Of a stretch of DNA of 64,000 nt, positions 9,604-22,656 are shown piece after piece (the first letter of the stretch is position 1; the number at the start of each line of letters is the position of its first letter). The position numbers and the translations under genes are program-made. Source of the stretch: Oscillospiraceae bacterium (GTDB lineage Bacteria; Bacillota; Clostridia; Oscillospirales; Oscillospiraceae); NCBI GenBank assembly GCA_021769865.1, contig JAETSB010000004.1, forward strand, positions 62,001-126,000, written 5' to 3'. Below the pieces are notes generated by a model. It made no database searches, was not told the origin of the DNA, and saw only the letters and a list, made by a program, of their open reading frames with translations.

Positions 9604-9885
9604 CAACTGAACATTTGGCGTTGATAAGGACGAGTAACCGGCCACAACCCTGCCAAGAGAGCCGCCGTTTGGTGCGAGGCGGTCAGGAGCGGCGGCGAAT
9701 ATCCCCTTGGAGCCTCCTGCTGAAAGACGACGCGAGTAGGTGTGGACGTGTGATGGGCGTTACTCCATCGGCCCGTATTGGCGGGCGCCGAGGGGCCGTG
9801 TCCCGTGAGGGCGCGGCAAGAAGAGTGGTAACGCAGAGCGCGCAGTACGCGCCCTGTCTCTTGAGGGAGACGGGGCGCGTTTTTG
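9604..9885 (+). promoter_or_regulatory. T-box leader (Ile) controlling ileS
   Basis: A ~280-nt untranslated leader. It opens with AAGGACGAGTAACC, typical of the stem I base (AGTA motif). A candidate Ile specifier ATC lies at 9701-9703 in GAATATCCCC. The T-box core is AGAGTGGTAACGCAGAG at about 9823-9837 (consensus TGGNACCGCG, here TGGTAACGC). It ends in a strong terminator, CGCGCCCTGTCTC / GAGACGGGGCGCG then TTTTT (9848-9884). Uncharged tRNA-Ile should favour the antiterminator and ileS expression. Confidence 0.82.
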
Positions 9886-14187: not shown

Positions 14188-14357
14188 CGCCCGGTGACAG
14201 AAATGGCCTGAGCAGGGGCTCAGGCCCCACGGAATTTATTTAAACCGAACAATAAACCGCCCGTCAAAACGCCTGTATTTGTAAAAACTCACAGTTTCTA
14301 TTTTTGAAGCGTTGTGTTATGCTTTAAACATCTAAAGAGCAAGAGGGGAAGCCGACC

Positions 14358-14459
14358 ATGACCGCCATTGCCCGCACCGCTGAATACGGCTATTTCTACT
14401 TTAGCTTTACCGGTTTTGGTAAGGCTTTTCGTGGTTTGGCTGAAAACGAGCGTGTGTGA
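14358..14459 (+). CDS. aro operon leader peptide (Tyr/Phe-rich)
   Basis: 33 codons with AGAGGGGAAG 6 bp upstream of the ATG. Residues 10-24 read [15 protein letters not shown], giving three Tyr and five Phe in 15 residues. It lies directly upstream of the terminator hairpin at 14495-14525 and the aromatic operon. A ribosome stalled at these codons when Tyr/Phe are scarce would change downstream folding. This is the arrangement of pheL/trpL-type attenuation. An extended -10 (TGTTATGCT, 14315-14323) may be the promoter; the rest of 14188-14357 is unremarkable. Confidence 0.8.
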
Positions 14460-14466
14460 GCTTCCG

Positions 14467-14525
14467 GTCCTGTCTCAGGACACCTGTACGAAGCGGCCCG
14501 CAGCCAGACCGGCTGCGGGCCTTTT
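14467..14525 (+). terminator. aro attenuator (pause hairpin plus terminator)
   Basis: GTCCTG-TCT-CAGGAC (14467-14481) is followed by a perfect 11-bp stem GGCCCGCAGCC / GGCTGCGGGCC (14495-14521) and TTTT. It sits between the leader peptide stop and the first structural gene. Confidence 0.78.
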
Positions 14526-14559
14526 GCGTATCACGAACGATTTTAAGGAGGAATCCGCC

Positions 14560-15576
14560 ATGATTGTCATTTTGAAGCACAACCCCAACCGGGACCAGCT
14601 GGACAGCCTCATCACCTGGCTCCAGGAGAAGGGCGTCACCATCCACACCAGCATCGGCGAGGCCAACACCATCCTGGGGCTGGTGGGGGACACCTCCAAG
14701 CTGGACATCGACCTCATCGCCGCCCTGGACATCGTCCAGGACGTGAAGCGGGTCCAGGAGCCCTACAAGAACGCCAACCGGAAGTTCCACCCGGAGGACA
14801 CCGTCATCCCCGTGGGGAACACCCGGATCGGCGGGGGCACCCTGACCATCATGGCGGGTCCCTGCTCCGTGGAGAGCGAGGAGCAGGTGGTGGCCATCGC
14901 CAAAGCCGTGAAGGCCAGCGGGGCCACCATGCTCCGGGGCGGGGCCTTCAAGCCCCGGACCTCCCCCTACGCCTTCCAGGGCCTGGGGGCCAAGGGTATC
15001 GAGTACCTGAAGGTCGCCCGGCAGGAGACGGGCCTGCCCATCGTGACGGAGCTGATGGACGTGACCCAGCTGCCCCTGTTCGGCGACGTGGACGTCATCC
15101 AGATCGGGGCCCGGAACATGCAGAACTTCGACCTTTTGAAGGCCGTGGGGCACCAGGACAAGCCCGTCATGATCAAGCGGGGCATGTCCGCCACCTACGA
15201 GGAGTGGCTCATGAGCGCCGAGTATGTCATGGCCAGCGGCAACGAAAACGTCATCCTCTGCGAGCGGGGCATCCGCACCTTTGAGAGCTACACCCGGAAC
15301 ACCTTGGACCTGGCGGCCATCCCGGTGCTGCGCCAGCTGACCCATCTGCCCATCATCATCGACCCCAGCCACGCCACGGGCAAGTACTGGCTGGTGGAGC
15401 CCCTGGCCCGGGCCGCCGTGGCCGCCGGGACCGACGGCCTCCAGATCGAGGTCCACAACGACCCGGCCCACGCCCTGTGCGACGGGCCCCAGTCCCTGAA
15501 GCCGGACGTGTTCGACCCCCTGGCGAAGAAGCTCCTGAAGCTCCATGCTTTTATGAAAGAGCTGGACAACGAGTAA
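14560..15576 (+). CDS. aroF: 3-deoxy-7-phosphoheptulonate (DAHP) synthase
   Basis: 338 aa. First enzyme of the shikimate pathway, condensing PEP and erythrose-4-phosphate. This is the type I-beta form: an N-terminal ferredoxin-like regulatory domain (residues 1-~70, [18 protein letters not shown]) precedes the catalytic barrel with [37 protein letters not shown] and [11 protein letters not shown]. Such N-terminal domains allow feedback inhibition by Tyr or Phe. ATG at 14560 has AAGGAGGAAT upstream. First gene of an eight-gene aromatic operon. Confidence 0.95.
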
Positions 15577-15589
15577 AGGAGGGCGCGGA

Positions 15590-16426
15590 ATGAATGTCGG
15601 TATCGTGGGCCTGGGCCTCATCGGCGGGTCCATGGCAAAGAGCGTCAAGGCCCGGACGGCCCACACCGTCTGGGGCGCGGACCTGGACCAGGAGACCATG
15701 TCCCTGGCCCGGATGAGCGGGGCCATCGACGGCCCCCTGACGGAGGAGAACCTTCCGGACTGCGATTTGATTTTGGTGGCCATCTGCCCCGGCGCGGCCA
15801 TCCGGTGGGTCCGGGACCACGCGGAGCACATCTCCAGGTCCGCCATCCTGGTGGACCTCTGCGGCGTGAAGCGGGTGGTGGTGGAGGCCCTGGCCCCCAT
15901 CGCGGAGGCCCACGGCTTCGCCTACATCGGCGGGCACCCCATGGCGGGCCGGGAGCGGGGGGGCTTCACCGCCTCCAGCGAGGACCTGTACGTGGGGGCC
16001 TCCATGATCCTGACCCCGGACAAGCGGACGGACATGCAGCTGCTGGAGACCTTGAAGGCTTTTTTCCTGGACGTCGGCTTCGCGGGGCTGACCTTCTCGG
16101 ACCCGGAGGAGCACGACCGCATCATCGCCTTCACCTCCCAGCTGGCTCACATCACCTCCAGCGCCTACGTGAAGTCGCCGGAGGCCCAGCGCCGCCGGGG
16201 CTTCTCCGCCGGGAGCTTCCAGGACATGACCCGGGTGGCCCGGCTGGACGAGGACATGTGGACGGAGCTGTTTCTGGACGACGCGGACTATCTGGTGAAG
16301 GAGCTGGATATCCTGATTGAAAACCTGACCGCCTATTCCAACGCCCTGAAATCCGGCGACGGGTCGCGGGTCCGGGCCCTCCTGAAGGAGGGCCGGGAGC
16401 TGAAAGCCACCGCCGGAGGAAGCTGA
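15590..16426 (+). CDS. tyrA: prephenate dehydrogenase
   Basis: 278 aa. Oxidises prephenate to 4-hydroxyphenylpyruvate for tyrosine. N-terminal NAD-binding motif GIVGLGLIGGS, then the substrate-binding GGHPMAGRERGGF with its His, and the helical dimerisation half (LAHITSSAYVKSPEAQRRRGFSAG split around it). There is no ACT domain, so regulation must come from elsewhere. It starts 13 bp after aroF with AAAGGAGGG upstream. Confidence 0.93.
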   Translation: MNVGIVGLGLIGGSMAKSVKARTAHTVWGADLDQETMSLARMSGAIDGPLTEENLPDCDLILVAICPGAAIRWVRDHAEHISRSAILVDLCGVKRVVVEALAPIAEAHGFAYIGGHPMAGRERGGFTASSEDLYVGASMILTPDKRTDMQLLETLKAFFLDVGFAGLTFSDPEEHDRIIAFTSQLAHITSSAYVKSPEAQRRRGFSAGSFQDMTRVARLDEDMWTELFLDDADYLVKELDILIENLTAYSNALKSGDGSRVRALLKEGRELKATAGGS

Positions 16427-16441
16427 GAAGGAGGGACGGCG

Positions 16442-17500
16442 ATGCAGACCATACCGGTCAACACGAACCCGCCCTACGGGGTTGCCATCGGCCCCGGCCT
16501 TTTGAAGGACTGCGGGCGGCGGCTGCGGGAGATCATTCCCCCCTGCCATATGGCGGTGGTCACCGATTCCATCGTGGGGCCGCTGTACCTGGAGACGGTG
16601 ACGGAGAGCTTGAAGACAGCGGGCTATACCGTCAGCGCGTATACCTTCCCCGCCGGGGAGGGCAGCAAGAACTTTACCACCTTGTCCGCCATTCTGGAGT
16701 TCCTGGCGGAGGAGCATTTGACCCGCACGGACTGCCTGATTGCCCTGGGCGGCGGAGTTGTGGGGGACATGGCGGGCTTCGCCGCCGCCTGCTACCTCCG
16801 GGGCATCCGTTGTGTCCAAATGCCCACCACGCTGCTGTCCGCCGTGGACTCTTCCGTAGGGGGCAAGACCGCTATTGATTTGAAGGCCGGGAAGAACCTG
16901 GCCGGAGCCTTCCTCCAGCCCGCCGCCGTCCTCTGCGACACGGACTGCTTGAAGACCCTCCCCCCTGCCGTCTTCGCCGACGGGGCGGCGGAGGCTGTCA
17001 AGACCGGCGTCCTCTGCGACGAGACCCTGTTTGCCCTCTTCGAGGACGGCACGCTGAAAGCCGACCCGGCGGAGGTCATCGCCCGGTGCGTGGCCTACAA
17101 GGCCGGCGTGGTGGAGCGGGACGAGAGGGAGCAGGGGGAGCGGAAGTTCCTGAACCTGGGCCACACCGTGGGCCACGCCATTGAGAAGTGCAGCGGGTAT
17201 ACGATTCCCCACGGCCACGCCGTGGCGGCGGGGCTGGCGGTTATCGCCCGGGCCTCCGAGGCCCTGGGCTGGGCGGAGGAGCCCCTGGCGGCGTGGATCT
17301 GCGCCTGCCTCCGCAAGAACGCCCTGCCCGTTTCCGCGGAGTACGCCCCCGAGGCCCTGGCGGAGGCGGCCCTGGCGGACAAGAAGCGGGCCGGGGGGAA
17401 CATCACCCTGGTCATTCCGAAGAAGATCGGCCTGTGCGAATTGAAAACCGTGCCCGTGACGGAGCTGCTGCCCGTCATCCGGGCGGGATGGGAGGCGTAG
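16442..17500 (+). CDS. aroB: 3-dehydroquinate synthase
   Basis: 352 aa, usual length. Converts DAHP to 3-dehydroquinate (NAD- and metal-dependent). Motifs: PAGEGSKNF, ALGGGVVGDMAGF, PTTLLSAVDSSVGGKTAID and the metal-ligand region LNLGHTVGHAIEK...PHGHAV. It begins 15 bp after tyrA with AAGGAGGGACGG upstream. Confidence 0.95.
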   Translation: MQTIPVNTNPPYGVAIGPGLLKDCGRRLREIIPPCHMAVVTDSIVGPLYLETVTESLKTAGYTVSAYTFPAGEGSKNFTTLSAILEFLAEEHLTRTDCLIALGGGVVGDMAGFAAACYLRGIRCVQMPTTLLSAVDSSVGGKTAIDLKAGKNLAGAFLQPAAVLCDTDCLKTLPPAVFADGAAEAVKTGVLCDETLFALFEDGTLKADPAEVIARCVAYKAGVVERDEREQGERKFLNLGHTVGHAIEKCSGYTIPHGHAVAAGLAVIARASEALGWAEEPLAAWICACLRKNALPVSAEYAPEALAEAALADKKRAGGNITLVIPKKIGLCELKTVPVTELLPVIRAGWEA

Positions 17501-18727
17501 ATGGACGTCAAAATCACCCCCCGTCGCCTTTCCGGGGTCGTCACGCCGCCCCCCAGCAAGTCCCTGGCCCACCGGTACGTCATCGCCGCCGCCTTGGCGG
17601 CAGGGACCAGCGTCATCAAAAACGTGTCCTTCTCCGAGGACGTGGAGGCCACCCTCCGCTGCATGGAGACCCTGGGGGCCCGGTGGGAGGCGGCGGAGGA
17701 CGGCCTGCGGATCGCCGGGATCGGCGGCCAGCGCCGTCCCTTTGGGGGGAATTTGCCCCGGTTCGACTGCGGGGAGTCCGGGTCCACCCTCCGTTTTTTG
17801 ATTCCTCTTGCCCTGACGGTGGACCAGGGGGGAATCTTCACGGGCCGGGGGCGGCTGATGGAGCGGCCCCAGCAGCCCTACTTTGACCTCTTTGACCAGA
17901 GGGGCATTTCCCATACCCAGGAGGACGGCGTCCTCACCGTCCGGGGGAGCCTGTCTCCCGGCGAGTACCGCCTCCGGGGGGACGTGTCCAGCCAGTTTTT
18001 CACCGGGCTGCTCCTGGCCCTGCCCCTGCTGGAAGGGCCCAGCGTGGTGATCAGCACCACGAAGCTGGAGTCCGCCTCCTACACCGCCATGACCATGGGG
18101 GTGCTGGAGCGCTGCGGCGTCCGGGTGCGCTGGTCTCCCGCTCTCAATGGCTTCGGCGTGGAGCCGGGGATCTACAGCCCCTTTGAGGAGACCGTAGAGG
18201 CCGACTGGTCTCAGGCGGCCTTCTGGTACGCCGCCATCGCCCTGGGGAGCAACCTGCGGCTCCGGGGCCTCAAGGGCCAGTCCCCCCAGGGGGACGCGGC
18301 GGTGGTGACCCATTCCAAGAAGCTGTCCCTCACCGGAGAGGTGAAGATCGACCTCTCCGACTGCCCGGACCTGCTGCCGCCCCTGGCCGTCATGGCCGCC
18401 GTCCGGCGGGGGACCACCCATTTCACCCACGCCGCCCGCCTCCGGCTGAAGGAGAGCGACCGGCTGGAAACCGTCTCCCGGATGCTCAAGGCCATCGGGG
18501 GCGCGGTGACCGAGGAGGAGGACGGATTGACGGTCTACGGCGTGTCCACCCTTCCCGGCGGAACGGTGGACGGGGCCAACGACCACCGCATCGTCATGGC
18601 CGCCGCCGTGGCGGCCACCCGCTGCCAGGGACCGGTGACCATCCGGGGAGCGGAGGCGGTGAAGAAGTCCTACCCCCATTTCTGGCGGGACTATGAAAAC
18701 CTGGGAGGTGCGGTCCATGTCCTCTGA
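17501..18727 (+). CDS. aroA: 3-phosphoshikimate 1-carboxyvinyltransferase (EPSP synthase)
   Basis: 408 aa, slightly short for the family. PPPSKSLAHRYVIAAALA near the N-terminus binds shikimate-3-phosphate. The PEP loop is CGESGSTLRFL, and the second-domain signature LRLKESDRLET is present. The ATG immediately follows the aroB stop (no gap), implying translational coupling. Its 3-prime end overlaps aroC by 11 bp. Confidence 0.94.
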   Translation: MDVKITPRRLSGVVTPPPSKSLAHRYVIAAALAAGTSVIKNVSFSEDVEATLRCMETLGARWEAAEDGLRIAGIGGQRRPFGGNLPRFDCGESGSTLRFLIPLALTVDQGGIFTGRGRLMERPQQPYFDLFDQRGISHTQEDGVLTVRGSLSPGEYRLRGDVSSQFFTGLLLALPLLEGPSVVISTTKLESASYTAMTMGVLERCGVRVRWSPALNGFGVEPGIYSPFEETVEADWSQAAFWYAAIALGSNLRLRGLKGQSPQGDAAVVTHSKKLSLTGEVKIDLSDCPDLLPPLAVMAAVRRGTTHFTHAARLRLKESDRLETVSRMLKAIGGAVTEEEDGLTVYGVSTLPGGTVDGANDHRIVMAAAVAATRCQGPVTIRGAEAVKKSYPHFWRDYENLGGAVHVL

Positions 18728-19808
18728 GTTTGGAAACCTGCTCCATGTCAGCGTGTTCGGCCAGTCCCACGGAAAGGCCGTCGGCGTCGTGGTGGACGGC
18801 CTGCCCGCCGGGGAGGAGATCGACCTGGAGGAGTTACAGCGCTTCCTGGACCGCCGGAGGCCCGGGACCGGCCCCCTGTCCACCGCCCGGAAGGAAACCG
18901 ACATTCCGGAGTTCCTCTCGGGTCTGGAGGGGGGAAAGACCTGCGGCGCGCCGCTGTGCGCCGTCATTCCAAACGCCGACCAGCACTCGAAAGACTACGG
19001 CGAGCTCCAGGACAAGCCCCGCCCCGGTCACGCGGACTACACCGCCTGGGCCAAGTGGGGCGGCCGCGCCGACATGCGGGGCGGCGGGCACTTCTCCGGC
19101 CGCCTGACGGCCCCTCTCTGCGTGGCCGGGGGGATCGCCAAACAGATCCTGGCCCGCCGGGGAGTGTTCGTGGGGGCTCATCTGGCTTCCGTGGCGGGCA
19201 TCCCCGACCAGCCGTTTCCCCTGCGCCCCACGGCGGAGCTCTTTGACGAGGTTGCCGCCAGGCCCTTCCCCGTCCTGGACGAGGCGGCGGGGGAGCGGAT
19301 GCGCTCCGCGATCCTGGCGGCAAAGAGCGACCTGGACAGCGTGGGCGGCGTGATTGAATGCGCCGCCATTGGACTTCCCGCCGGGCTGGGGGACCCCATG
19401 TTCGGCGGCGTGGAAAACCGCCTGGCCGCCGCCCTCTTTGGCGTCCCGGCGGTGAAGGGCGTGGAGTTCGGCGAGGGCTTCCGGGCCGCCGCCCTTAGGG
19501 GCTCCGAGAACAACGACCCCTTTACCGTGGAGGGCGGCCAAATCCAAGCGGTCACCAACCATGCCGGGGGCATTCTGGGGGGCATCACCACGGGCATGCC
19601 CCTGGTCCTCCGGGCGGCGGTGAAGCCCACGCCGTCCATCGGGAGACCCCAGAGAACCGTCCGTCTTTCCGCCATGGAGAACGCGGACCTGACGATTCAC
19701 GGGCGGCATGACCCCTGTGTGGCCCACCGGGCGGTCCCGGTGGTGGAGGCGGTGACCGCCGCCGTACTTCTGGATATGCTATTGGAGGGAAACCATGGAA
19801 CTTTCTGA
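18717..19808 (+). CDS. aroC: chorismate synthase
   Basis: 363 aa. FMN-dependent final step to chorismate. SSEFGNLLHVSVFGQSHG opens the protein, with DRRRPGTGPLSTARKE and RPGHADYTAWAK following. The late motif RHDPCVAHRAVPVVEAVTA is also present. ATG at 18717 has GGGAGGTG 6 bp upstream, inside the aroA coding sequence. It overlaps pheA at its 3-prime end by 14 bp. Confidence 0.95.
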   Translation: MSSEFGNLLHVSVFGQSHGKAVGVVVDGLPAGEEIDLEELQRFLDRRRPGTGPLSTARKETDIPEFLSGLEGGKTCGAPLCAVIPNADQHSKDYGELQDKPRPGHADYTAWAKWGGRADMRGGGHFSGRLTAPLCVAGGIAKQILARRGVFVGAHLASVAGIPDQPFPLRPTAELFDEVAARPFPVLDEAAGERMRSAILAAKSDLDSVGGVIECAAIGLPAGLGDPMFGGVENRLAAALFGVPAVKGVEFGEGFRAAALRGSENNDPFTVEGGQIQAVTNHAGGILGGITTGMPLVLRAAVKPTPSIGRPQRTVRLSAMENADLTIHGRHDPCVAHRAVPVVEAVTAAVLLDMLLEGNHGTF

Positions 19809-20931
19809 CATCCGCGCCAAGATCGACGCCGTCGACGACCAACTGCTGGCGCTCTTCCTGGAGCGCATGGACCTGGCGGAGGAAGTCGCCGCCTATAAAA
19901 ACGAGCACCACCTCCCCATTTTGAACAAGGAGCGGGAGCGGGCCGTGCTGGCCCGGGTGACGGAGAAAGCCGGGGCCCGGGAGCGCTGCGCCTATCACCT
20001 CTTCTCCACCCTCTTCGAGCTGGCCCGGTCCCGCCAGGCGGAGCTCATCGACGCGCCCACCAAGGTGGGGGCCCGGGTCCGGGCGTGCCTTGAAAATCGG
20101 GACCAGCTGTTCCCCCAGACGGGATTGGTTGCCTGCCAGGGGGTGGAGGGGGCCAACTCCCAGGCGGCCTGCGACCGCCTCTTCCCCCGGGGGAACATCA
20201 TGTACGTCAAGACCTTCGACGCGGTGGTCTCCGCCGTGGAGGCGGGCTTCTGCAGGTTCGGCGTGCTGCCCATTGAGAACAGCTCCAACGGCTCCGTCCG
20301 GGCGGTGTACGAGCTGCTGCAGGAGCACAGCCTCACCATCGTCCGCTCCACCCGCCTGTGCATACGCCACGAGCTGCTGGCCCTGCCGGGGGTGAAGCTG
20401 GAGGACGTGACGGAAATCTACTCCCACCAGCAGGCCATCGGCCAGTGCAGCCGCTTCCTGGAGGGGCTCAAGGGGGTCAAGGTCATCCCCTGCGACAACA
20501 CCGCCGCGGCGGCGAAAATGGTGGCCGAGTCCGGGAACCGCCATGCCGCCGCCATCTCCTCCCACGCCTGCGCGGCGCTGTACGGCCTGGAGTGCGTCGG
20601 GGATCAGATCCAAAACAGCGACAACAACTACACCCGCTTCATCTGCGTGGCCAAGGACCCGGTCATCTACGCCGGCGCCAACCGGGTCAGCCTCATCATC
20701 GCCTTTGAGAACAGGCCCGGCGCGCTGTACGAGATGCTCTCCAAGCTGGCGGCCCTGGACATCAACATGACGAAACTGGAGTCCTGCCCCGTCAGCGGCA
20801 GCGACTTCGAGTTCATCTTCTTCATCGAGCTGGAGGCGGACCTCCGGGACCCCAGCGTCCGGGCCTGCCTGGAGGAGATGGAGCGGAGCTGCGCCCGGTT
20901 CCACTTCCTGGGGAACTACGCGGAAGTGTAA
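19795..20931 (+). CDS. pheA: bifunctional chorismate mutase / prephenate dehydratase (P-protein)
   Basis: 378 aa. Residues about 1-85 are an AroQ chorismate mutase (IRAKIDAVDDQLLALFLERM). Residues about 105-285 are the prephenate dehydratase with QGVEGANSQAA, LPIENSSNGSV and the catalytic NYTRF. An ACT domain (about 290-370) contains GALYEMLSKLAALDINMTKLE. The usual Phe-binding ESRP is ESCP here and GALV is GALY, so feedback by Phe may be altered. Overlaps aroC. Confidence 0.94.
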   Translation: MELSDIRAKIDAVDDQLLALFLERMDLAEEVAAYKNEHHLPILNKERERAVLARVTEKAGARERCAYHLFSTLFELARSRQAELIDAPTKVGARVRACLENRDQLFPQTGLVACQGVEGANSQAACDRLFPRGNIMYVKTFDAVVSAVEAGFCRFGVLPIENSSNGSVRAVYELLQEHSLTIVRSTRLCIRHELLALPGVKLEDVTEIYSHQQAIGQCSRFLEGLKGVKVIPCDNTAAAAKMVAESGNRHAAAISSHACAALYGLECVGDQIQNSDNNYTRFICVAKDPVIYAGANRVSLIIAFENRPGALYEMLSKLAALDINMTKLESCPVSGSDFEFIFFIELEADLRDPSVRACLEEMERSCARFHFLGNYAEV

Positions 20932-20935
20932 GGCC

Positions 20936-22183
20936 ATGGAAAAGATTTACGGCCTTCTGGGCCGGACTCTGGGCCACAGCTGGTCCGCGCCCATTCACAA
21001 GGCCCTGGGCTGCGAGGGCTACCGCCTCATCGAGCTGGAGCGGTCGGAGCTGGAGGGCTTCCTCCGCCGGGAGGACATCGGCGGGCTGAACGTCACGATT
21101 CCCTACAAACGGGACGTGATGAAGTTCTGTGACGAGATCGACCCGGCGGCGGAGGCCATCGGCAGCGTGAACACCCTGGTCCGCCGGGGCGGGAAGCTCT
21201 GCGGGTACAACACGGACATTGACGGCTTCCTCTACATGCTCCGCCGGGCGGGCATCACCCTGACGGGGAAAAAGGCGCTGATCCTGGGCAGCGGCGGGGC
21301 CTCCCTGACGGCCCAGGCGGCGGCAAGACAGGAGGGGGCCCGGGAAATCGCGGTTCTCTCCCACCGCGACCTGGACAACTGCGAGTTTATCAACCACAGA
21401 GACGCGGAGGCCCTCGTCAATACGACCCCTGTCGGCATGTGGCCGGATTTGGAAGGGCTGAGCATGAATCTGCGAAACCTGCCGGCCGTAACGGACGTGG
21501 CGGATGTGATCTACAACCCCGGGCGGACCAGTCTGCTGCTTCAGGCGGAGGAGATGGACCGGGAGCCCCGTTATCACCGGCATCTCCGCTGGACCGGGGG
21601 GCTGCCCATGCTGGTCCAGCAGGCCAAGCGGGCGGAGGAGCTGTTTTTCGACCGCTCCATCCCCGACGCGGAGACGGAGAAGATCATCGCGCGGCTCTGG
21701 CGGAAGATGACCAACCTCGTCCTGATCGGGATGCCCGGCAGCGGCAAGACCACCGTGGGCCGCTGTCTGGCGGGCCTGTCCGGCAAAGCCTTCGTGGACG
21801 TGGACGAGGAGATCGTCCGGGCGGCGGGCAAGCCGATTCCGGAAATCTTCGCCCAGGAGGGCGAGGAGGCGTTCCGGATGCTGGAGAACCAGGTTTTGAA
21901 GGAGGTCTGCGCCCAGAGCGGCCGGGTCATCGCCACCGGCGGCGGAGTCGTTCTTCATATGGAAAACTGGAACACCATGCGCCGCACCGGCCGGGTGTAC
22001 CGGCTGAAGCGAAGGCTGGAGGACCTGGCCACGGAGGGGCGTCCGCTGTCCAGGTCAGGGAATTTGGCGAAAATGGAGCAAACCCGGGGGCCGCTGTACG
22101 ACGGGGCGGCGGATGCCTCCGCTTGGAATACGGGCAGCCCGGAGGAAACCGCCGGAACGATTTGGAGGGATTTTTGTGAGTGA
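20936..22183 (+). CDS. aroE-aroK: fused shikimate dehydrogenase-shikimate kinase
   Basis: 415 aa, two enzymes in one chain. Residues 1-~255 are shikimate dehydrogenase: LGHSWSAPIHKAL, NVTIPYK with the catalytic Lys, GYNTDIDGF, and a nucleotide-binding LGSGGAS. Residues ~258-415 are shikimate kinase: Walker A GMPGSGKTTVG, DVDEEIVRAAGK, ATGGGVV and the lid EGRPLSRS. The fusion performs dehydroshikimate to shikimate to shikimate-3-phosphate. It starts 4 bp after pheA and overlaps aroQ by 8 bp. The single polypeptide is open throughout, so this is not an assembly join. Confidence 0.92.
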   Translation: MEKIYGLLGRTLGHSWSAPIHKALGCEGYRLIELERSELEGFLRREDIGGLNVTIPYKRDVMKFCDEIDPAAEAIGSVNTLVRRGGKLCGYNTDIDGFLYMLRRAGITLTGKKALILGSGGASLTAQAAARQEGAREIAVLSHRDLDNCEFINHRDAEALVNTTPVGMWPDLEGLSMNLRNLPAVTDVADVIYNPGRTSLLLQAEEMDREPRYHRHLRWTGGLPMLVQQAKRAEELFFDRSIPDAETEKIIARLWRKMTNLVLIGMPGSGKTTVGRCLAGLSGKAFVDVDEEIVRAAGKPIPEIFAQEGEEAFRMLENQVLKEVCAQSGRVIATGGGVVLHMENWNTMRRTGRVYRLKRRLEDLATEGRPLSRSGNLAKMEQTRGPLYDGAADASAWNTGSPEETAGTIWRDFCE

Positions 22184-22619
22184 GAAAAAGCAGAGCATTC
22201 TGGTCATCAACGGCCCCAACATGAATTTGCTTGGCATCCGCCAGCCGGAGATTTACGGCCACACGGACTACGTGGACCTGGAGAACCTGATCACCGCCGA
22301 GGCGGAGCGCCTGGGGGTGTCCGTCTCCTTCTTCCAGTCCAACCACGAGGGGGATCTGGTGGACGCCATCCAGCAGGCGTACTTCGACAAGGTGGACGGC
22401 ATCCTCATCAACCCGGGGGCCTACACCCACACCAGCATCGCCCTGCTGGACGCGGTGAAGTCCGTGGGCATCCCCACGGTGGAGATCCACATCTCCGACC
22501 CGGACAAGCGGGAGGAGTTCCGCCACGTGTCCTACATCCGGGAGGCGTGCATCGCCAGCATCCGGGGCCACGGCGTCCAGGGCTATCTGGAGGGACTGAA
22601 GCTCCTCGCCGAGCAGTGA
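22176..22619 (+). CDS. aroQ: 3-dehydroquinate dehydratase, type II
   Basis: 147 aa from a GTG at 22176 with TTGGAGGGA upstream. ILVINGPNMNLLGIRQPEIYG carries the active-site Asn/Tyr region, cut short here; QSNHEGDLVDAIQ, ILINPGAYTHTSIALLDA and VEIHISDP...REEFRHVSYI follow, as in dodecameric type II enzymes. Last gene of the operon, followed by a strong terminator. Confidence 0.94.
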   Translation: MSEKKQSILVINGPNMNLLGIRQPEIYGHTDYVDLENLITAEAERLGVSVSFFQSNHEGDLVDAIQQAYFDKVDGILINPGAYTHTSIALLDAVKSVGIPTVEIHISDPDKREEFRHVSYIREACIASIRGHGVQGYLEGLKLLAEQ

Positions 22620-22621
22620 GA

Positions 22622-22656
22622 AAAAGCGCTCAGCTGTGAAACAGCTGAGCGCTTTT
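22622..22656 (+). terminator. terminator of the aro operon
   Basis: Perfect 15-bp stem AAAAGCGCTCAGCTG / CAGCTGAGCGCTTTT with loop TGAAA. It would also work for the opposing gene at 22669. Confidence 0.9.

Follow-up and report, generated by a model that had tools for sequence, protein, structure and literature searches.

The aromatic operon in the window, by which we mean the whole stretch of 64,000 nucleotides of Oscillospiraceae DNA that was analysed (GCA_021769865.1, contig JAETSB010000004.1, positions 62,001 to 126,000), is very probably controlled by a ribosome-mediated transcription attenuator that would sense charged tRNA-Tyr and tRNA-Phe. This is the best explanation of the sequence comparisons and folding models, and we infer the amino-acid response from them. 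At the level of sequence, the comparisons establish a short leader ORF, its cluster of aromatic codons, a terminator, the complementarity of an arm within the ORF (C) to the 5' side of the terminator (D), and the co-evolution of this complementarity between families. The sequence-only reading of the window had proposed the Tyr/Phe leader as an attenuator, which is supported by the conserved aromatic codons and by co-varying, competing stems.

Leader region and operon

A short ORF with a start codon and a Shine-Dalgarno sequence is expected of a ribosome-mediated attenuator, and the putative leader at 14358-14459 possesses both. The sequence-only reading had described 33 codons with eight aromatic residues, a good ribosome site and a stop 35 bp before a perfect 11-bp hairpin, and all of these were confirmed in the sequence (Table 1). 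Tyrosine is encoded by codons 10, 12 and 14, and phenylalanine by codons 13, 15, 17, 20 and 24. The hairpin provides an intrinsic terminator that separates the leader from the first gene; its stem pairs 14495-14505 with 14511-14521 around a five-base loop, and the run of T behind it numbers just four in the window, as against five or six in many relatives. The fold of 14325-14535 is better than that of all 200 shuffled sequences (z -4.33).

A likely promoter element precedes the leader, and its conserved form was found in 48 of the 54 same-genus aroF upstream regions as against 0 of 54 reverse complements. A consensus promoter scan picked up no promoter at the leader region. Between this element and the Shine-Dalgarno sequence lies an inverted repeat (14322-14337, CTTTA-AACATC-TAAAG) that is retained in many relatives. 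Further upstream, at 14202-14230, a 29-base inverted-repeat element (GGCCTGAGC..GCTCAGGCC) looks like a repeated hairpin terminator; the genome holds 11 further copies with 88-100% identity. The source assembly comprises 2.13 Mb in 39 contigs and was judged 81% complete.

Beyond the hairpin, the complete aromatic operon claimed by the sequence-only reading was recovered, with matches for aroF, a tyrA-like gene, aroB, aroA, aroC, pheA, aroE-aroK and aroQ. These genes were called with NCBIfam models, whose cut-offs were passed by aroF, aroB, aroA, aroC and aroQ; the tyrA, pheA, aroE and aroK parts matched the right families with scores under the cut-offs.

Table 1. Features of the leader region and the aromatic operon (positions in the window)
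Feature	Position	Strand	Remarks
Likely extended -10 promoter element, TGTTATGCT	14315..14323	+	conserved as TGNTATNCT in relatives
Shine-Dalgarno sequence of leader ORF, AGGGG	14344..14348	+	
Leader peptide ORF, 33 codons	14358..14459	+	ATG 14358, TGA 14459; homologous leader in most same-genus aroF genomes
Aromatic control codons 10-24 (3 Tyr, 5 Phe)	14385..14429	+	Tyr/Phe-rich columns in relatives
Leader hairpin 5' arm (A), GCTTTACC	14404..14411	+	pairs with B, 384/384 cells, 48 sequences
Leader hairpin 3' arm (B), GGTAAGGC	14418..14425	+	pairs with A
Antiterminator 5' arm (C), GGTTTGGCTG, within ORF	14433..14442	+	complementary to D, 461/474 cells, 48 sequences; rare synonyms frozen
Small spacer hairpin GTCCTG-TCT-CAGGAC, between both antiterminator arms	14468..14482	+	from folding
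Intrinsic terminator, 11-bp stem + TTTT	14495..14525	+	6/11 pairs with two-sided changes, 48 sequences
Antiterminator 3' arm (D), CAGCCAGACC in the window, terminator 5' arm and loop	14501..14510	+	pairs with C
aroF, DAHP synthase	14560..15576	+	NF006421 489.8 bits, cut-off 335 passed
tyrA-like prephenate dehydrogenase	15590..16426	+	best NF006307 156.8 bits, below cut-off 295
aroB	16442..17500	+	TIGR01357 341 bits, cut-off 305
aroA	17501..18727	+	TIGR01356 291.7 bits, cut-off 287.25
aroC	18693..19808	+	NF003793 403.2 bits, cut-off 321; true start probably slightly downstream
pheA, chorismate mutase-prephenate dehydratase	19795..20931	+	NF008866 219 bits, NF007910 210.8 bits; both below cut-offs
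aroE-aroK fusion	20936..22183	+	shikimate dehydrogenase 3-239, shikimate kinase 258-413; both below cut-offs
aroQ, type II dehydroquinase	22113..22619	+	NF003806 188.9 bits, cut-off 171; true start inside
Inverted repeat + TTTT, probable operon end	22625..22656	+	by eye, no tool score

Conservation of the leader in the genus

Of 61 same-genus genomes, 54 contain a detected aroF, the window's own counted, and a leader was scored where an ATG-initiated ORF with a Shine-Dalgarno sequence contained at least six Tyr/Phe within 12 codons. Such a leader was present in 52 of the 54 upstream regions (window included), in none of the 54 reverse complements, and never in 20 shuffles of each. The two loci without it are L055, for which only 200 bases upstream exist, and L061. 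Fifty-one of these leaders align as one family with the typical sequence MTNIARAAEYRYFSFTYFYGKAYFGLAESxRV; the aromatic leader of L062 was left out of this alignment. A leader pattern occurred as one copy in 49 of the 61 genus genomes and never as two, diverged copies being able to escape this search. A pattern search of named genomes returned 93 stretches, and 61 of the 80 titles listed are from Oscillibacter, Dysosmobacter or Oscillospiraceae; Oscillibacter valericigenes Sjm18-20 is among the matching genomes.

The cluster of codons for the end products of the operon is thus conserved, as attenuation demands: the aromatic codons are kept in the genus, and in other families their density is retained as most other sequence changes. 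The sequence-only reading had asked for this comparison with relatives and for co-varying stems, and the latter were found as well, with two-sided changes at 6 of the 11 terminator pairs in the genus (48 sequences), above all 500 shuffles, and with an antiterminator pairing that co-varies between families.

The proposed antiterminator and its codons

We think that the leader codons GGTTTGGCTG and the terminator 5' arm with its loop form the antiterminator, in which the sequence-only reading had left the arm within the ORF unnamed. As judged from complementarity and modelled folds, the C:D helix would exclude the terminator, and stalling would expose arm C. A further helix, A:B, is located within and behind the aromatic codons. 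Six genomes have a D that is shortened by one base, with which C can still pair through a bulge or one pair fewer; in three of these six, C has changed as well, according to our reading of the aligned rows. The covariation of C:D in the genus is small, as there is one two-sided change and 36-81 of 500 shuffles are equally good. Because the variation in the genus is too low, covariation within it was dropped as proof of C:D, and a swap test between families was used instead.

The non-aromatic leader residues GKA-x-x-GLA are almost invariant in the genus. A comparison of codon usage in 30 aroF genes with 50 leaders revealed that, in the codons of B and C, GGT is used in 50/50 leaders at two sites (aroF usage 10%), GCT in 50/50 (aroF usage 5%) and the leucine codon TTG in 46/46 (aroF usage 7%), and that some tyrosine and arginine codons outside the stems vary among synonyms. 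The codons of B and C are thus locked into synonyms mostly avoided by aroF genes, and the conserved GKA-xx-GLA is explained by RNA pairing.

A separate observation concerns the phenylalanine codons. Three leader columns (14394-14429 and relatives) have TTT in 112 of 114 cases as against 16% in aroF, where TTC makes up 84%; two of these columns fall outside the stems, and a fourth phenylalanine column is TTC in 27 of 28 cases. A conserved Tyr/Phe position is also found directly before arm C (14427-14429 and relatives, codon columns +3/+4).

Co-evolution between families

For the swap test, 40 representatives were used, one per family label and one for the genus, and the duplex energy of the 3' part of each leader with its own or a swapped terminator 5' arm was calculated. 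The native pairings summed to -546.6 and the swapped ones to -405.7 (sd 15.3), which corresponds to a z of -9.18 and was attained in 0 of 20,000 permutations. As a control, the region before the ORF gave a z of -0.17, and base composition therefore does not account for the result. The own arm came first for 5 of 40 leaders and among the top three for 14 of 40, the single cases not each being decisive. Families f9 (L166), f6 (L169), f36 (L351) and f55 (L316) have kept the complementarity with differing sequence. The best-site duplex energies are modest when compared with shuffles of each leader, with p <=0.05 in 18/51, 26/61 and 16/35.

The median distance from the last aromatic codon of the cluster to the antiterminator arm is 17 nt in the order, 24 nt in the class and 6 nt in the genus, the last being counted from a later aromatic codon. 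The 17 nt of the order set are about the distance to the leading edge of a ribosome on stalling.

Proposed mechanism

In the mechanism that we propose, RNA polymerase would start some 30 nt ahead of the leader ORF, at the likely promoter, and a ribosome would translate the leader. When tyrosine or phenylalanine is short, the ribosome would stall at aromatic codons 10-20 and open the leader hairpin A:B, and arm C would become free just ahead of it. C could then pair with the freshly made arm D before the 3' arm of the terminator exists, and the resulting read-through would reach aroF-tyrA-aroB-aroA-aroC-pheA-aroEK-aroQ. With plentiful tyrosine and phenylalanine, the ribosome would cover C, D would pair with its own 3' arm and transcription would stop near 14525. 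If no ribosome is present, C of the window would be mostly occupied by upstream leader RNA.

The folding models are consistent with this order of events, in which the stalling, the sequence of folding and the amino-acid response are inferred. Before the terminator 3' arm is made, the free RNA of the leader region in the window is predicted to fold into C:D when a ribosome occupies codon 13 or 20, and into leader hairpins with no ribosome. For the 51 genus leaders at the same stage, the modelled mean probability of C:D amounts to 0.92 when the ribosome stands on the aromatic codons preceding GK and to 0.16 when it stands on those following GK; it is 0.28 without a ribosome, and zero by construction with a ribosome past C. 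A stall at the Tyr/Phe position right before C would, in the model, hide C and favour termination, which counts against the model. The predicted probability of C:D without a ribosome is 0.08 in the window and 0.89 in two of the nine leaders listed; the A:B hairpin can be drawn in 48/48 rows. As C:D is already likely without a ribosome in some relatives, a protector structure is probably not general. With the terminator fully transcribed, the minimum-energy fold contains its 11-bp stem for each of the seven ribosome positions modelled. The finished terminator outcompetes the antiterminator in equilibrium folds, and the model therefore needs co-transcriptional trapping.

Leaders and T-boxes in the order and class

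The survey of the order covered 147 genomes, 97 of which have a detected aroF, and 109 upstream regions; that of the class covered 146 genomes, 107 of them with aroF, and 87 upstream regions. The filter used here accepted ORFs 12-45 codons long in which some stretch of 12 codons held six or more Tyr/Phe, and made no Shine-Dalgarno demand. A stricter filter with that demand (38/109 in the order) was discarded, as it missed leaders that are plainly present. Tyr/Phe-rich ORFs occur in 63 of the 109 order upstream regions, as against 1 reverse complement and 3.0% of shuffles, and in 38 of the 87 class regions, with 0 reverse complements; by this filter, 46 order loci and 49 class loci have no leader. 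A terminator follows the leader at 52/52 genus, 61/63 order and 36/38 class loci, and is found at 1/2, 28/46 and 27/49 of the respective loci without leader. Chance ORFs probably account for at least two of the 38 in the class, L376 and L378, because neither has a terminator and L376 is a T-box. Leaders are rare by the filter in f12 (1/10 genomes), f2 (2/8), f5 (0/2) and f22 (1/7), and five further f22 genomes have an ORF holding five Tyr/Phe.

The f22 leaders L209, L212, L216 and L218 contain phenylalanine, tyrosine and tryptophan spread out, as for example in RFTSFGYPRFFWAWDF, and possibly read all three aromatic amino acids. It was also considered whether leader Trp codons track tryptophan biosynthesis, for which 80 of the 102 leader-bearing genomes were searched. 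trpA exceeded its cut-off in 31 of these 80, namely in 9/16 with a Trp codon and 22/64 without one (Fisher p 0.15), which does not support the idea.

Firmicutes usually sense amino acids by T-boxes. The ileS T-box noted in the sequence-only reading is present at 9612-9864 (87 bits, E 1.9e-19, just below the Rfam gathering score of 93), but its occurrence beside a leader peptide, which had been regarded as noteworthy, is usual in the genus: T-box matches were found in 13 of 13 genomes searched, the window's genome having 13 such matches and its 12 relatives 7 to 19 each. Among 20 order loci mostly without leader, 10 have a T-box, one in f2 (79.8 bits, below the gathering score) and nine in f12 (99-127 bits; L246, L248, L249, L251, L253, L254, L255, L257 and L258), which belong to a second aroF copy in eight genomes and to the sole copy in G071. 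Among 20 class loci, 8 have a T-box (families f41, f44 and f68), and two of these T-boxes score below the gathering score.

trpE was found in 5 of 15 genus genomes, with two of the matches scoring less than the family cut-off; the incomplete genome of the window gave no match. Four genomes were common to both searches (G008, G017, G024 and G029), and in each of them about 100-175 bases separate the end of a T-box from the trpE match. For this reason, tryptophan is probably read by a T-box in the genus, and tyrosine and phenylalanine by the leader peptide. Weak three-Trp ORFs precede trpE at two of the 5 loci. No His-rich ORF was found before hisG at 14 genus loci, a weak test in that hisG is maybe not the first gene; the T-box word pattern used in the trpE/hisG test missed known T-boxes.

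We lean by a narrow margin towards a class-wide lineage of aromatic leader attenuators on the Clostridia DAHP synthase operon, which would have repeatedly traded places with aroF T-boxes. The Tyr/Phe cluster of some families also includes a Trp codon, so that a single peptide may respond to all three aromatic amino acids.

Alternative explanations

A conserved peptide could also bind free tyrosine or phenylalanine in the ribosome and stall it at a fixed place, as in TnaC. The near-invariance of GKA-x-x-GLA in the genus would fit such a nascent-peptide arrest, as would the recurrence of AEY and GKA in the leaders of several other families. Peptide selection, however, does not demand the freezing of rare synonyms, and the leaders of f3, f9, f36, f55 and f57 retain their aromatic density without GKA. 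Arrest residues kept regardless of codon choice were not found, there being no non-aromatic residue common to all families, and we regard such an arrest as very improbable. The strong conservation of the peptide in the genus could likewise suggest that the released leader peptide also acts in trans, as reported for Sinorhizobium peTrpL; this conservation is accounted for by RNA pairing, and we give an additional role of this kind an even smaller chance.

Two explanations that dispense with the leader peptide as a sensor are similarly far-fetched. About half of the aroF upstream regions without leader also have terminators, which would be compatible with constitutive attenuation, or with the terminator of an upstream gene and a chance ORF, in the absence of any sensing; against this stand the enrichment of leaders over shuffles and reverse strands and the stronger pairing of native than of swapped arms. 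That a T-box or another tRNA- or ligand-binding riboswitch controls aroF here might be supposed from the T-boxes that lie upstream of ileS in the window and, among relatives, of trpE and aroF. Yet a search of 14190-14600 against Rfam, T-box (RF00230) included, gave nothing better than E 0.97, none of 20 leader loci matched a family at E 0.01, and the leader had no Rfam match at gathering or relaxed thresholds. Ribosome-mediated attenuation hence remains our preferred explanation.

Relation to known attenuators

In E. coli, trpL and pheL are ribosome-mediated attenuators. The leader of the window is like them in architecture, with a short ORF rich in codons for the product, a mutually exclusive antiterminator and terminator, and a matching biosynthetic operon. 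It is unlike them in combining tyrosine and phenylalanine in one clostridial peptide, and in that the antiterminator arm lies within the ORF in the genus and ends past the stop codon in some other families. T-box leaders (RF00230) serve the same purpose at the same gene in other families and differ by direct binding of tRNA without translation. The work of Lopatovskaya et al. on attenuation in bacteria may predict some such leaders.

The sequence-only reading overstated the rarity of leader-peptide attenuators in Firmicutes, several of which have been published (PMC2965389, PMC5794164, PMC9413887, PMC8632094). The ilv-leu operon of S. aureus has a Leu-rich attenuator peptide backed by mutants, where B. 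subtilis uses a T-box, according to PMC5794164; it shares leader-peptide attenuation in a Firmicute with the proposed clostridial attenuator, and the amino acid, operon and sequence differ. His attenuators of the his operon are listed for 17 Firmicutes genomes of the Bacillus cereus group, Eubacteriales and Erysipelotrichales in PMC9413887, and a His leader of hisS/hisZ is described for bacilli in PMC2965389, whose authors state that, ermC aside, leader peptides were unknown to them outside Proteobacteria and Actinobacteria. The His attenuators resemble the clostridial leader in having a leader peptide with terminator and antiterminator and in alternating with T-boxes, but they have His codons and his genes. 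Closest in its gene is the uORFC-13-1 motif of Acholeplasma, a Phe-coding uORF that adjoins a terminator and, according to PMC8632094, occurs exclusively upstream of aroF. The likeness, which is one of description, lies in an aroF uORF by a terminator; the motif differs in being given there for Acholeplasma and environmental sequences only, and for phenylalanine. No report of a clostridial aroF leader peptide was found in the open-licence papers searched. As far as could be searched, leader-peptide attenuation in Firmicutes is thus already known, and the clostridial aroF member, its breadth and its pairing are undescribed.

In a wide range of clostridia, the aromatic pathway seems to be controlled through ribosome stalling and not through a T-box. 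The element lies outside all Rfam families and illustrates clearly how one gene can be served by different sensors; its natural variants form a collection of attenuators whose distance between control codons and antiterminator is readable from the sequence.
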